NCBI GenBank assembly: GCA_026636295.1
Contig: CP089450.1
Coordinates: 620,001 to 684,000 of the forward strand
Length of the DNA: 64,000 nt
DNA from: Medakamo hakoo
Lineage: Eukaryota; Chlorophyta; Trebouxiophyceae; Coccomyxaceae
Direction of reading: 5' to 3'
The notes beneath the pieces were generated by a model that saw nothing but the letters and a program-made list of their open reading frames with translations, did no database searches and had not been told where the DNA came from. The stretch's first letter is position 1. Each line of letters begins with the position of its first letter. Positions 24,604 through 60,941 of the stretch are shown here, one piece after another. The position numbers were made by a program, and so were the translations under genes.

Positions 24604-25218
24604 TGCAAAACAAAAGCGGCGCTGCCTTTCCTGTTTTGTTTCGAGCCCACAGCGACCGGGGCCCGCCCTCCGCTACTCTTCGCCAGCCACGCGACGGCGC
24701 GTGCGCGTGTGCTGGCTTGGAGTGGGGTGGAGGAGCGGACTGGCCGAGGGGAGGGTTGGGTGTGCCCGGGTGGAGGAGGAGGGATAGGAGAGTGAGCCCG
24801 GCCGCGCGCGCGGCGCGCTCCGTGGTCTCTGGTCCAAGAGAGCTCTGCCTTGCTAGCCCCGCCCCGCCCTCTCCCCACGCCTCCCCTCCCTCCCAGCGAC
24901 TGATCCCGCTCGCTCTCTCTCCATTTCTTTTTCCTTCTTCCTCGCCGCCGCCGCTCCCCACGCCCTTCGCTGCCGAGCGGTCGGCCAAACCAGAACCGCA
25001 AGCGACCTGCCCCCCTCTCAGAGAGGGGGGCAGGTCGCTTGCCACGCGCGCCGGGGCCCTCGCCACACCCCTCCTCCTCGCGGCAAACGCGCGAGCACAC
25101 GGCCCCGGGCTCGTCCCGCCCGGCACCTCTCCTGGCACCTATCTCAGAACCTCTCGCCTCCTCCGTTTTTTCTTCGTCTAACAAAAAAAGTGCGCTCCAT
25201 CCCATCCTCAACCACTCC
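24604..25218. other. 615-bp gap containing a 45-nt palindrome
   Basis: Between the BRWD stop and the next minus-strand start codon. Mostly C/T-rich on plus (24880-24960). No coding region supported. Must contain the BRWD 3' UTR and the promoter of the 754-residue protein; the palindrome at 24998-25042 is its notable content. Confidence 0.6.
24998..25042. repeat. Perfect 22-bp-arm inverted repeat, 1-nt loop
   Basis: Left arm begins GCAAGCGACCTG and ends CCCCCCTCTC (24998-25019), spacer A at 25020, right arm GAGAGGGGGG... to 25042 is its exact reverse complement. Lies 176 nt past the BRWD stop. Confidence 0.95.
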
Positions 25219-56166: not shown

Positions 56167-57611
56167 TCAGTCCCGGTCGCCGCGGAACCACAACGCCGGC
56201 TCGCCCTCCGCGTCGGGCGACACCCAGTGGCAGTCGCGCCAGTCCTCCCACAGCGCGCGCACAACCCCGCGCCCGTCGGACGCGTAGTACTCGCCCAGGA
56301 CGGGCTTGATGGCGGCCGACGCTTCCTGCGCGTGGTAGTGCGGGATGGACGAGAACAGGTGGTGCAGGACGTGCGTGTCGGCGATGTGGTGGAACGCCGC
56401 GTCCAGGACCGGGCCGTACGACCGGTCGACGGTGGCCAGGGCGCCGCGCAGCCAGTCCCACTCCTGGGACGACGCGTAGTGCGGCAGGGCTGGGTGCGAG
56501 TGCTGGAGCAGTGTGATGATGACCAGCCAGGCGTTGACGATGAGCAGGGGGACGCCGTACAGGGCGGCCACGGCCGCGGCGCCGTGGGCCTTGACCGCGG
56601 CGACGAGGCCCGCGACGACGGCGAAGAACGCGGCGGACGAGGCGGCGACGCCCGCGCGCTGCCGCTTGGAGAAGATGGGAGAGGCCGGGTCGAAGTGGTT
56701 GGGCGGCAAAGAGAGCGAGGAGCCGCCGCCGCCGCGTTTGGGGTAGTCACGCCCGGACACGTTGAAGGCCAGGTACAGCGGCCAGCCCAGGGTGAGGGCG
56801 GCGGTGATGCCCGCCACCCGGCCGGGGACCGTGCGCAGCGCGCGCGTGAAAAAGTCGCCCAGCACGGCCGCCCGCCCGCCCGTGCCCGGAATTTTGGACA
56901 CGGGCGGCACAAAGACTTCATCCCCTTCCACGTCGCCCGTGTGCGCGTGGTGGCGGGCGTGGCTGTACTTCCAGGACCAGTAGGGCACGAGGAGGAGGGA
57001 GTGGAGGACGGAGCCGACGGCGTCGCTGTTGGTGGTGAGAGTTGGGGCAGGGTTGGGAGGGAGGGGTGGTGAGCGGGGGGTGAGAGAACGAGCGGGAGGG
57101 GGCGGCAATGACGGACGGAGCCCCCCGCCCGCAAAAAAAAACAGACTCACTTGAGGACCGGCGAGGACGAAAAGGCGCCGTGGCCGCACTCGTGCGCGCA
57201 CACCCACAGGCCCGTGCCGACGACGCCCGCGACGGCCCAGTAGGCGCACCAGGCGGCGGCCTTGACGGCGACGGGCGCCGCCGCCAGCAGCGGTTGGGCC
57301 CGCACGATGGCGGTCGCGGCGGCCGCGATGATGGACGCGTCAACGGCGACGTAGGCCAGCGATTTCAGGGCCGAGCGGTGGAAGCAGTGCGGCGGGATGG
57401 CGGCCCGCAAGTCGCTCAGCTTGAAGGGCGGCGGGGTGGATGGTTTGCGCGCCACGGCCGCGGCTGCGGCCGTCGACGGCTGCGAGTGCGCGCCGGTCGG
57501 CGACGCCGCGCCCTTGGCCGAGTTCAGGTCCTTGGCCGAGTCGGCCCGGGCGCGCGGTCCCAGCCCCTCACTGACAGGGCTGCGGTCACGGACGACGGAG
57601 GCCTGACACAT
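56167..57611 (-). CDS. FAD2: FAD2-type microsomal delta-12 oleate desaturase
   Basis: ER di-iron enzyme converting oleate to linoleate on phospholipids. Exons 57611-57151 and 57025-56167 (intron GTGAGT...CAACAG), 439 residues. Three histidine boxes are intact: HECGHGAF, HARHHAHTG, HVLHHLFSSIPHYHA. Flanking family sequence includes [54 protein letters not shown] across the splice, DYPKRG, and LQHSHPALPHYASSQEWDWLRGAL with DRSYGPVLDAAFHHIADTH. Four or more hydrophobic segments. The N-terminal about 65 residues are Ala/Ser-rich and longer than in plants. Between delta-12 and omega-3 activity the LP(H)Y and TVDRSYG features favour delta-12. Confidence 0.93.
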
Positions 57612-57916
57612 ATTGTGGTGATGCGGGCGGTCCTGGGCGCCGTGGGGGAGCGGGAGAGGGCAAAACGTTCTGATGCGACGACGGCACCAGGAAAGAAAGG
57701 CCGGCGAGGGGGCAGCCGGGCGCAGATCGAATCCTTGTTGCGGCCCCACTTGGGTCTTAAGAGCTTCTACAAGCCAAAAACGTGTGCAGGACGGATTGGA
57801 GGAGGGGAAGGTTTGAGCGCTGGACGCTGCGAACAAAAAAAAATACGTTTTTGGCGAGCGCGCGGCGCGACAAGCGGTCGCGCTCCCCTCGCCCCCTCGC
57901 CCCGGCCCCCCACCCT

Positions 57917-57944
57917 GTGGGTGTGCTTTGGCAAACACACCCAC
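57917..57944. repeat. 9-bp-arm inverted repeat
   Basis: GTGGGTGTG, 10-nt loop, CACACCCAC, with partly pairing CCCT/GGG outside. Confidence 0.7.
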
Positions 57945-57987
57945 GGGCACTTGAACCCCTGACTCCGCGGTTCGTAGCCGTGTGCTC
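57945..57987 (-). pseudogene. tRNA-Arg(ACG)-like 3' half fragment
   Basis: On minus reads GAGCACACGGCTACGAACCG then CGGAGTC and GGGGTTCAAGT. The anticodon arm CGG-CTACGAA-CCG presents ACG and closely follows organellar trnR(ACG); the T arm has a mismatched stem. No D arm or 5' acceptor strand precedes it: the 16S-like piece does. Hence a fragment, not a functional tRNA. Confidence 0.55.
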
Positions 57988-58020
<33 letters not shown>

Positions 58021-58024
58021 GCCG
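57988..58024 (-). pseudogene. 16S rRNA-like fragment (start of helix 44)
   Basis: On minus contains GAATACGTTCCCGGGCC followed directly by TTGTACACACCGCCCG, the near-universal 3' region of bacterial/organellar 16S rRNA (E. coli about 1370-1406). Only about 37 nt are present, inside a nuclear gene-dense region, so an insertion of organelle DNA is the likely source. Confidence 0.65.
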
Positions 58025-58045
58025 CTGACAGCGGTGAATACGTTC
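58011..58045. repeat. 16-bp-arm inverted repeat overlapping the 16S-like piece
   Basis: GAACGTATTCGCCGCT, loop GAC, AGCGGTGAATACGTTC; one mismatch. The two arms are opposite copies of the 16S segment around GGTGAATACGTTC. Confidence 0.85.
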
Positions 58046-58048
58046 ACC

Positions 58049-58066
58049 GTCAGCTATATAGCTGAC
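58049..58066. repeat. 18-bp perfect palindrome
   Basis: GTCAGCTATATAGCTGAC, A/T-centred, adjacent to the previous inverted repeat; 66 nt past the SUN gene stop. Confidence 0.9.
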
Positions 58067-58131
58067 CCGAAATAATCTTTTAGCTCCAGCAACGGGAGAT
58101 TCACTGGGCCGGCCGTCGGGCAGCCCCGGCT

Positions 58132-58920
58132 TCACTCCTCCCCGACCACCCGCACCCTGTGCAAACACGTCCCGCCCGCCCGCCCCCGGTTCCGCACCAC
58201 CCGCACCCGCACCACCCTCGCGCGGCCGGGCGACCGCACGGCCAGGACGGCGGGGGGCGACGCGCCCGCGCCCGGGCGCGGCACCTCCACTTCCCCGGCC
58301 TCCACCCAGTCCGACCCGTCGCCCTTTTCAGACAGGGCCACGCCCAGGACGGCCGGCAGGCCCGCCAGGCCGTCAGGCCAGGCCGTGCCGGCCGGCGGGG
58401 CGTCGACCGACAGGCCAGTCACGTGCGGCGGGGAGGCATCCGCCGACCCGCCCAGCCGGACGTCCACCCAGCCGCCGGACGCCCCCGCCAGGGGGAGGCA
58501 GGCGCCCGGCAAGGCCAGGCCGCCGGGAGGCGGGGTCAAGAGCCAGGCGTCGGCGCGAGGGTGGACGGGCGGAGGCGTGGACGACCCCCGGGGCGGGGCG
58601 GGCATGGCCTGGGCCGCGGGCGTGCCCGGCTCGAGCGGGGAGTGCGCGACGACCCGCCCGCCCGCAGACGCGAGCGCCCAGTCCCTCCCAGGCCCGACCA
58701 GCTGGGCTGAGAGGGCGGCCTGCGCCGCGGACGCGGCCAGCGCGGGCGACGCGTCCCAGGCGCGGCGGGCCAGGCCAGCGGCGCCCAGCGCCGAGACCAG
58801 CGCCGCCGCCGCCAGCGCGCTCGCAAAAAAGGCGAGCGCGGCGGGCAGCGGGACGTCGAGCGCCAGGCGTGGGACGACCCGACCGGGCGGCAGTGGCGGC
58901 GGCGGCCGGCGGGGTGGCAT
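58132..58920 (-). CDS. SUN-domain inner nuclear membrane protein
   Basis: SUN proteins span the inner nuclear membrane and bind KASH proteins to link nucleus and cytoskeleton. Single exon, 262 residues, small for the family. One membrane helix at about residues 25-50 (LPAALAFFASALAAAALVSAL), a short Ala-rich helix, then the SUN domain: DWALASAGGRVVAHSP, ALPGACLPLAGASGGWVDVRLGG (PGxCW-like site with Cys-Leu), SPPHVTGLSVDAP, LAGLPAVLGVALSEKG, VLAVRSPGRARVVRVRVVRN, and the closing GGTCLHRVRVVGE, which matches the G..TCLYR.RVHG end of SUN domains. The canonical coiled coil before SUN is very short. The KASH-lid region cannot be judged. Confidence 0.78.
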   Translation of the reverse strand: MPPRRPPPPLPPGRVVPRLALDVPLPAALAFFASALAAAALVSALGAAGLARRAWDASPALAASAAQAALSAQLVGPGRDWALASAGGRVVAHSPLEPGTPAAQAMPAPPRGSSTPPPVHPRADAWLLTPPPGGLALPGACLPLAGASGGWVDVRLGGSADASPPHVTGLSVDAPPAGTAWPDGLAGLPAVLGVALSEKGDGSDWVEAGEVEVPRPGAGASPPAVLAVRSPGRARVVRVRVVRNRGRAGGTCLHRVRVVGEE

Positions 58921-59046
58921 GGCGTGCGTGCGTGTGTGCGTGCTGTCGTCGAAGGACGGTTAGGGACAGTGTGTGTGTTGTTTCCACCTCCCCCCCCCCT
59001 CCTCCCTCCTCCACCCCCCCCTCCTCCCGCTTCACGCGCCCGTTTT

Positions 59047-60941
59047 TCACTTCGCCCGCCCGCTCCGCGACCGCGACCGCGACCGCGTCGCCGCCGCCTT
59101 CTTCGCCGCCCCACCACTCGCTGCCTTGGCCCGCGACGGCCGCCCGCCCCCACCACCATTCGCGGCGGCGCCTCCCGCCGCCGGCGGGTCCGCCACGCTC
59201 ACTTTTTTGGGGGTGATGGCTAGGCACCGAATGCCCAGGTACGCGCACGTTTCATCGATGACGGACAGGACGTAGTGCAGGTACCCGCCCGCAGCCAGGA
59301 CCAGGATGCACGCGTCGAGGGCCGGCGGGGGCGCGAACAGGCCCGCCTTGCCGTCCCCGCCCGCCGAGTTGGCCGCGGAGAGGGCGAGGAGGCCGAGCGG
59401 CCACCAGGCCAGCTCAAACGGTTCTTTAGACATGTGATCCATGATGAGCTTGGACGCCTGTTTTTTTAAGGGTTTGGGCGCGCGGATCGATGCAGGTTTA
59501 GTGTGTTGGGAACCGAGGAGAGAGAGGGGCGCGACGCGTGGGGTGTGCGTGGGGGACGGAGCGGTGCAAACAGCGGCGCCGGAAAACGTCAAAACCTCGC
59601 AAAAAAAAAAAAAAAACCTGGGCCTCACCTCGAGTGCGTAAATGATGCCAAACGTGCCAAACACCACCCGCGTGTGCCAGTCCTCCCGCCCCGCGCGGAC
59701 GGGCTCCAGCATGGCGACGGCTCCCAGACTCAGCAACAACGTCAGCTGGGCGGCGTGCGCAGCCGCCGCCCGGCGGCCGAGCTGCTTGGCTCCACGCGCG
59801 GCGGGCGCGAGCGGCGCGTCGCCGCTGGACGAGCACACCAGCACCCGCCACAGCGGGCCCGAGACTTGGAAGACGCCGCACGCGACGATGACGGCGAGCA
59901 GGGCGTCGGTGCCGGTGCAGGACGAGACGTACGCGCCGACCGGGCGGGGCAGGCGGGCCAGGGCGCCGGCCAGGCCCCACCGGCGCGCGAGGGTCGGCAG
60001 GCCCACCCGCCAGGGCGCCGCCCCGAACGCCGCCGTGACCAGGTGCAGCGCGATGAGCGTGTAGTTGGCTTCCGTCACGCCCCACCAGCCGTTGCCGTAC
60101 CGGATGTGGCCGGAATGGTACTCCTCCCAGTGCGCGGCGATCCAGGGCGCCATGACGGCGAGCTGCCCCACGACCGCACGCGGGGACAGGCCCGTGTCGA
60201 TCGTCGCCCCGATGCCGACGATGAGCAGGTGGACGGCGAGGGCGTCGCACCCGTGGTCGAACAGCTGGCCCAGGGGGGAGGACGACCCCGTGCGCCGGGC
60301 CTGCTTGCCGTCCAGGACGTCCAGGTGGAGGTAGAGGAAGGTGGCGGCGGCCATGAGGGCATACACCCACGCCGGCGCGGTCGTCTCCAGCGCGGGCGCG
60401 TGCGCCGCCGTCACCACGTACGCGCCCGTCAGGACGGCGAGGCCGGACAGGGTGATGAGGTTGGGGGCGAGCCAGAGGGGCAGGTAGGTGACGATGGCTG
60501 TGTGGATGATGGGATGGGGTGGACGGCGGTGGAGGAGGGGGGGTCGCGTCAGCGCGAGCAGCCGTCGGCGGCGGTTGCGCGCCGCGGGCGAGAGAGCGAT
60601 GCGAGACGTCGAAAACCCGTCTCGCAGGGAGCTTTGCCGCGGTCAACCCGCCTACCCACTCCCCACATTGGGTCTTCACATGACTGGGGTACGCGTTGCA
60701 CGGCGTGGAGGCATTGGTTGTGGGCTTGCCTGGGCGTGGCGCGACGAAAAACCGACGCGGGCGCCCGTTTTTTTCGCACGACGCCGCCGCCGCAAATTGG
60801 CCCCCCCGCCGCGCCCACCTGCCCCGCCAGCACCTCACCATTCCACGCGGGCGTGTGCACGTCATCTAGCCAGGTGTAGCCCGAGGCCACATACTTGTAC
60901 TTGGCCAGCCCTTGGAGGGCGCGGCGGGAGAGGTAGGGCAT
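59047..60941 (-). CDS. CDP-ethanolamine/choline phosphotransferase
   Basis: Final step of the Kennedy pathway: transfers phosphoethanolamine or phosphocholine from CDP to diacylglycerol in the ER. Exons 60941-60839, 60497-59629, 59457-59047; 460 residues. Start MPYLSRRALQGLAKYKYVASGYTWLDD is typical; the splice gives PAWNAIVTYLPLWLAPNLITL. Catalytic CDP-alcohol motif DVLDGKQARRTGSSSPLGQLFDHGCDA fits DG-x2-AR-x8-G-x3-D-x3-D. HWEEYHSGHIRYGNGWWGVTEAN is the family segment after it. About eight to ten hydrophobic stretches; a basic Lys/Arg/Ser tail (SRSRSRSGRAK) is unusual. Choline versus ethanolamine specificity is not readable. Exon 1 ends at the GTGAGG donor, not the GTGGGC donor 20 nt downstream, which breaks the frame. 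Confidence 0.93.

Follow-up and report, generated by a model that had tools for sequence, protein, structure and literature searches.

A short nuclear patch of Medakamo hakoo that joins organelle-type 16S rRNA and tRNA-Arg(ACG) fragments to putative inverted self-copies

A patch of less than 200 bp on a nuclear contig of the green alga Medakamo hakoo carries a piece of a 16S rRNA gene fused to the second half of a tRNA-Arg(ACG) gene, in the company of three inverted repeats (Table 1). We consider it probable that a small, rearranged piece of organelle DNA was inserted here into the nuclear genome, captured at a chromosomal break with fold-back synthesis; break repair would be the event and fold-back one of its steps. 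The new element is that the two palindromes within the 16S part can be read as inverted self-copies of the 16S letters, organelle insertion and fold-back inversion each having been documented already. We propose no function for the patch, which looks like a scar of broken-DNA repair. Throughout, the window is the 64,000-nt stretch of contig C3 in which the patch was noticed.

Table 1. Features of the patch and of its neighbours (window positions)
Feature	Position	Strand	Remark
Neighbour: fatty-acid desaturase gene, first coding exon	57147..57611	-	start codon 57609-57611
Left-edge hairpin, desaturase side	57914..57947		15-nt arms, 87% complementary, 4-nt spacer
tRNA-Arg(ACG) fragment	57948..57987	-	D-stem 3' strand, anticodon arm, variable loop, T-arm start
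16S rRNA fragment, helix 43 3' strand to helix 44 start	57988..58027	-	Salmonella 16S 1359-1395 = 57988-58024
16S hairpin	58011-58045		17-nt arms, 94%, 1-nt spacer
Insert within 16S fragment	58028..58056		29 nt, mostly inverted copies of the flanks
Perfect 18-bp palindrome	58049-58066		palindrome scan
16S helix-43 loop	58057..58067	-	in register with 57988-58027 against L004 once the insert is omitted
A+T-richer stretch	58068..58100		without significant 16S match
Neighbour: ORF related to P0005	58132..58959	-	stop 58132-58134

Genomic setting of the patch

M. hakoo is a tiny trebouxiophyte whose published assembly comprises 18 contigs, two of them organellar and set aside (PMC9871001). The nuclear assembly analysed here holds 15,638,232 bases (15.64 Mb) in 16 contigs. 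Neither cox1 nor psbA gave a match in these 16 contigs, so the organelle genomes appear to be absent from them. The patch lies on contig C3 (1,283,613 bases), flanked by ordinary eukaryote genes, which places it in the nucleus, and the protein neighbours of the window (GC content 74%) are green-algal. The sequence-only reading had described a stretch of under 200 bp between two ordinary genes, and this was borne out; the whole intergenic space measures 521 bp, and the organelle-type RNA-gene part takes up about 150 nt of it.

On one side stands a desaturase gene whose reading frames contain PF11960 and PF00487. On the other side is an ORF that is 46% identical to P0005 across 192 aligned positions; P0005, a relative's protein, has a precomputed SUN domain (PF07738), and the ORF ending at 58132 gave no match of its own in a Pfam search. 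The ORF and P0005 share the same last residues and stop, and thus the patch left the ORF uncut. This SUN-related ORF stands next to an ethanolaminephosphotransferase gene (58132-60642 for both), and the two are also adjacent in the relative, whose gene prediction joins them in a single protein (P0005).

Because organelle and nuclear contigs of M. hakoo were assembled together (PMC9871001), the patch might be a misassembly or a library chimera of organelle and nuclear reads. However, the published account gives a long-read coverage of 246.8x and contigs flanked by telomeres (PMC9871001), and a chimera would be expected to bring in long, unaltered organelle sequence rather than about 150 nt with inverted copies. 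We regard an artefact of this kind as highly improbable. We found no description of the patch in the genome paper, as far as its main text goes (PMC9871001), and the string 'palindrom' is absent from that text.

16S rRNA and tRNA-Arg(ACG) fragments

Read on the minus strand, the order is the A+T-richer stretch, the 16S piece with its insert, the second half of tRNA-Arg(ACG) and a hairpin. Judged by its letters, the identity of the 16S core is certain. A full-length Salmonella 16S query had a single match in the 15.64 Mb assembly, the patch itself (37 nt, 97%, E 1.9e-9; non-exhaustive search), and this match marks the fragment as of the bacterial or organelle type, distinct from nuclear 18S. 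In Salmonella numbering the match ends about 150 nt short of the 3' end of the gene. Beyond the core, the 58031-58140 side, aligned locally to 16S in sense orientation, did no better than shuffles, of which 300 of 300 and 58 of 300 scored as well; the tRNA side likewise failed to exceed shuffles in alignment to 16S.

The core is also met in other collections. A blastn search with 57880-58130 matched 510 plasmid records, of which 391 were 95-99% identical, 116 were 90-95%, two were 80-90% and one was at least 99%; among the 20 of these 510 matches that were listed, the aligned span ran from about 57982/57988 to 58030 at 86-97% identity. In the phage collection 21 records matched (19 of them at 95-99%), with a 16S annotation on eight of the 20 matches listed. 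Exact scans of viral contigs for plastid-type 16S letters found none.

Directly adjoining the 16S fragment is the tRNA-Arg(ACG) piece, and the fusion that the sequence-only reading had proposed is confirmed. On the minus strand, 57946-57987 aligned over 35, 39 and 42 nt to genes of bacterial type that ARAGORN names tRNA-Arg(ACG) in loci L010, L011 and L016; the first two loci were retrieved with 20 letters of the window itself and the third with a plastid version, so that the alignment scores are biased upward. The fragment scored 38-50 against six viral tRNA-Arg loci (of 11, all chosen by pattern) and at most 28 against 18 nuclear tRNA matches, nine of which ARAGORN names, none as Arg; a nuclear Arg(ACG) gene was not among the sequences compared. 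Nuclear tRNA-Arg(ACG) genes often have introns. An anticodon-arm pattern of the eukaryote type gave three two-mismatch matches against four for its reversed control, and thus no nuclear tRNA-Arg(ACG) gene was identified.

The piece begins in the D-arm, extends to the T-loop and, by eye, has one mismatch in the anticodon stem and a broken T-stem. ARAGORN reported no tRNA in the window. Rfam searches with lax thresholds returned only sub-threshold chance families in or near the patch and none at the gathering score in the window. Together with the ARAGORN result, this indicates that both RNA genes are present as fragments only. A circularly permuted tRNA, with the left hairpin as acceptor stem, was also considered and was dropped, no D-arm being seen by eye after the hairpin. 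The exact 16S-tRNA junction was found nowhere in the prokaryote and viral contigs scanned.

The sequence-only reading took it that these RNA genes are not neighbours in normal organelle genomes. For this group the premise is weak, as the plastid rRNA operon is reported to be broken in most late-diverging core trebouxiophytes and perhaps in all of them (PMC4524492). The fusion and the palindromes could then have existed in an organelle genome beforehand, as a 16S duplicate or as palindromic repeats beside trnR, and have moved to the nucleus as one collinear piece. The rearranged rRNA operons of late trebouxiophytes (PMC4524492) are in favor of such a transfer, as is the abundance of palindromic repeats that is described for the organelles of chlamydomonadalean green algae (PMC7235400). 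In contrast, the palindromes made of 16S letters interrupt a conserved rRNA core and so should not sit in a working 16S gene. Furthermore, a tRNA that begins in its D-arm and a 16S match that stops about 150 nt early mean that a rearranged duplicate would be required. We therefore rate this transfer of a ready-made arrangement as unlikely, while still giving it some weight.

Inverted copies within the 16S fragment and the palindromes

The three inverted repeats announced by the sequence-only reading are all present. We propose that the two in the 16S part arise from the 29-nt insert, which consists of 1 nt, an inverted copy of the left flank (17 nt), 3 nt and an inverted copy of the right flank (8 nt). 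Each inverted copy lies beside its template, as fold-back copying predicts, and agrees with it at 16 of 17 nt on the left and 8 of 8 nt on the right. Among 2000 random 29-mers of local composition none reached the left match and nine reached the right one, counts that depend on insert bounds set by eye after inspection of the sequence. In a cruder local alignment of this side to whole 16S genes in the inverted direction, shuffles did as well in 7 of 300 trials with Salmonella and in 4 of 300 with L004. At one position the 16S copy has a C, against a T in the inverted copy and in each of the four references, and therefore at least one base probably changed after copying.

When 58028-58056 is omitted, the flanks form 51 nt that agree with L004 at 45 of 51 positions ungapped, 12 loop letters included, where L004 is a chosen reference: a WWE3 bacterial contig retrieved with a plastid-type 28-mer that was picked after the loop had been noticed. 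The same 51 nt matched ungapped at 41 positions in Salmonella, 42 in Acinetobacter and 40 in Rhodobacter, nearly all in the 3' part, and the loop disagrees in all three. Thus the loop letters of the patch are absent from these three proteobacterial 16S genes. We take them to be those of the green plastid 16S helix-43 loop. The source would accordingly be of plastid type, as the loop suggests. In the prokaryote contigs the plastid-type 28-mer occurred in one stretch, L004 1687-1714, a WWE3 bacterial 16S gene with the same helix-43 letters as those ascribed here to green plastids; the presence of the loop there means that it is not exclusive to plastids.

Both 16S palindromes are built from 16S letters that they interrupt, and on this composition they need not be foreign repeat elements. 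The earlier proposal that the palindromes are organelle repeat elements now residing in the nucleus is accordingly disfavored: the two in the 16S part are best described as inverted 16S self-copies, and no second nuclear copy was found. The search for further nuclear copies that had been recommended was carried out, and in the 15.64 Mb assembly the patch, the 16S core and the 18-bp palindrome each matched only at the patch (non-exhaustive search). With up to two mismatches allowed, the palindrome again occurred only there in the nuclear assembly, which is not the behavior of a dispersed repeat. An exact scan of viral contigs did not find it. A tRNA-derived SINE was rejected on the grounds that a single copy was found.

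A 23S query matched the assembly only in the nuclear 28S region on contig C10, in two pieces, and therefore this query yielded no second organelle scrap. That nuclear rDNA region (L041 3757-9908) has three group I intron matches in Rfam and, about 1.4 kb after the 28S start, a tRNA-Ala(CGC) gene.

The patch is predicted to fold strongly, with z scores of -5.13 as RNA and -4.98 as DNA, about five standard deviations below shuffles for either strand, and 0 of 200 shuffles did as well in either case. Taken as strings, palindromes of this size are no rarity in the G+C-rich M. hakoo genome: those with arms of at least 16 and at most one mismatch number five in the 64-kb window and 10 in 200 kb from elsewhere in the genome. 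The longest arms among the window matches listed belong to a 45-nt palindrome at 24998-25042 (22-nt arms, at most one mismatch, 1-nt spacer), which has a C/T run inside, and elsewhere on contig C3 a 50-bp palindrome with 25-nt arms (L036 4430-4479) is based on a tetranucleotide repeat. Hairpins with arms of at least 14 number 49 in 264 kb, and the majority are strongly G+C; arm base entropy reaches 1.7 bits in six of the 49, the patch hairpin included. Under a cut of our own choosing (arms of at least 9, at most one mismatch, entropy of at least 1.85 bits) there are 14 hairpins in the window and 24 in 20 background loci combined, and the patch is the only site in the 264 kb where two of them lie within 200 bp of each other.

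Strong predicted folding and a location between two genes would suit a functional hairpin element, acting as RNA or as DNA, that belongs either to the upstream gene, at its 3' end, or to the promoter of the desaturase gene. However, a single copy was found, no Rfam family reached its gathering score, and most of the patch is explained by its origin from fragments. A functional element is, in our estimate, scarcely credible.

Proposed origin and comparison with known systems

In the origin that we favor, a chromosomal break between the desaturase gene and the SUN-related ORF would have been closed with organelle scraps, a plastid-type 16S piece and the 3' half of trnR(ACG), set end to end. During copying or joining of the 16S piece, the new strand would have turned back on itself, or moved over to the opposite strand, inside helix 43, which is itself an inverted repeat and would offer a match for fold-back. 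About 17 and then 8 bases would have been copied in reverse before a return to the original direction, which would account for the 29-nt insert and for both 16S palindromes. One strand switch would not place the inverted pieces in the order seen, and a minimum of two steps would be needed. A similar fold-back may be the origin of the left-edge hairpin, which is possibly the tRNA 3' end with a fold-back copy of it.

The separate steps have precedents. Organelle DNA is known as a filler of breaks, with joints that are blunt or overlap by 1-7 bp, and insertions of several pieces as well as mosaic ones are documented in plants (PMC6215612, PMC7037861). The 16S-tRNA junction of the patch seems to have little or no overlap. 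Yeast break repair yields fold-back inverted duplications, mostly 5-34 bp long, at short inverted matches, and several yeast mutants are reported to have complex insertions that combine two inverted pieces from the same locus (PMC11724301). The M. hakoo genome has a gene for a Pol theta-type protein; its 2310-aa open frame carries helicase, POLQ_helical and family A polymerase domains. Stem-loop extension by Pol theta is the subject of PMC11292364. The fold-backs in yeast required Pol delta and NHEJ (PMC11724301), and thus the yeast work does not point to Pol theta.

An RNA route would start from pieces of organelle rRNA and tRNA, with template switching and snap-back during reverse transcription and insertion of the resulting cDNA. 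Both recognisable pieces do derive from RNA genes and have their sense orientation on one and the same strand; RNA genes are, on the other hand, the pieces most easily recognised when the organelle genome is not at hand. The patch has no visible poly(A), and a flanking direct repeat (57907-57919 and 58149-58161, 12/13) is unlikely to be a target duplication. We rejected it as such since one copy lies within the conserved end of the neighbouring ORF. Overall we judge the RNA route very unlikely.

Of the two origins put forward in the sequence-only reading, a mosaic insertion of organelle-type RNA-gene pieces in the nucleus is supported. The other, in which a chlorophycean mitochondrial genome with scrambled rRNA genes and palindromic repeats was the donor, is not: the host belongs to the Trebouxiophyceae, and both 16S palindromes are made of 16S letters. 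The patch shares with chlamydomonadalean organelle repeats (PMC7235400) the possession of short palindromes able to form hairpins, but its palindrome was found in a single copy, consists of 16S letters and lies in a trebouxiophyte nucleus.

Similarly, the complex NUPTs and NUMTs and the mosaic 'numins' described in plants (PMC6215612, PMC7037861) consist, like the patch, of organelle-type pieces joined directly at a nuclear site. The patch differs from these mosaics in being very short (about 150 nt) and in having inverted self-copies. The same plant surveys describe NUPTs as few in most algae (PMC6215612, PMC7037861). With the fold-back inversions and inverted templated insertions of yeast (PMC11724301), the patch has in common inverted copies (of 5-34 nt in yeast) beside their template and a pair of pieces from one locus that run in opposite directions. 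Unlike the yeast cases, where the pairs come from mutants, the template here is an organelle-type 16S sequence inside an insertion, the host is an alga, and only the end product is seen.

Read as inverted self-copies within an organelle scrap, a puzzling group of palindromes would tie the capture of organelle DNA to fold-back repair. The host is a minimal alga, and a single 16S query found no other such piece in its nuclear assembly. We further put forward, as a distinctly speculative extension, that fold-back copying is seeded by the helices naturally present in RNA genes, whereby pieces of organelle rRNA and tRNA genes, or of their RNAs, would turn recognisably into palindromes once captured at breaks. 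The finding would gain in importance if fold-back at rRNA or tRNA helices recurred in many such scraps, and were helices indeed the seeds, the patch would preserve that process as a clean fossil, possibly an RNA-templated one.
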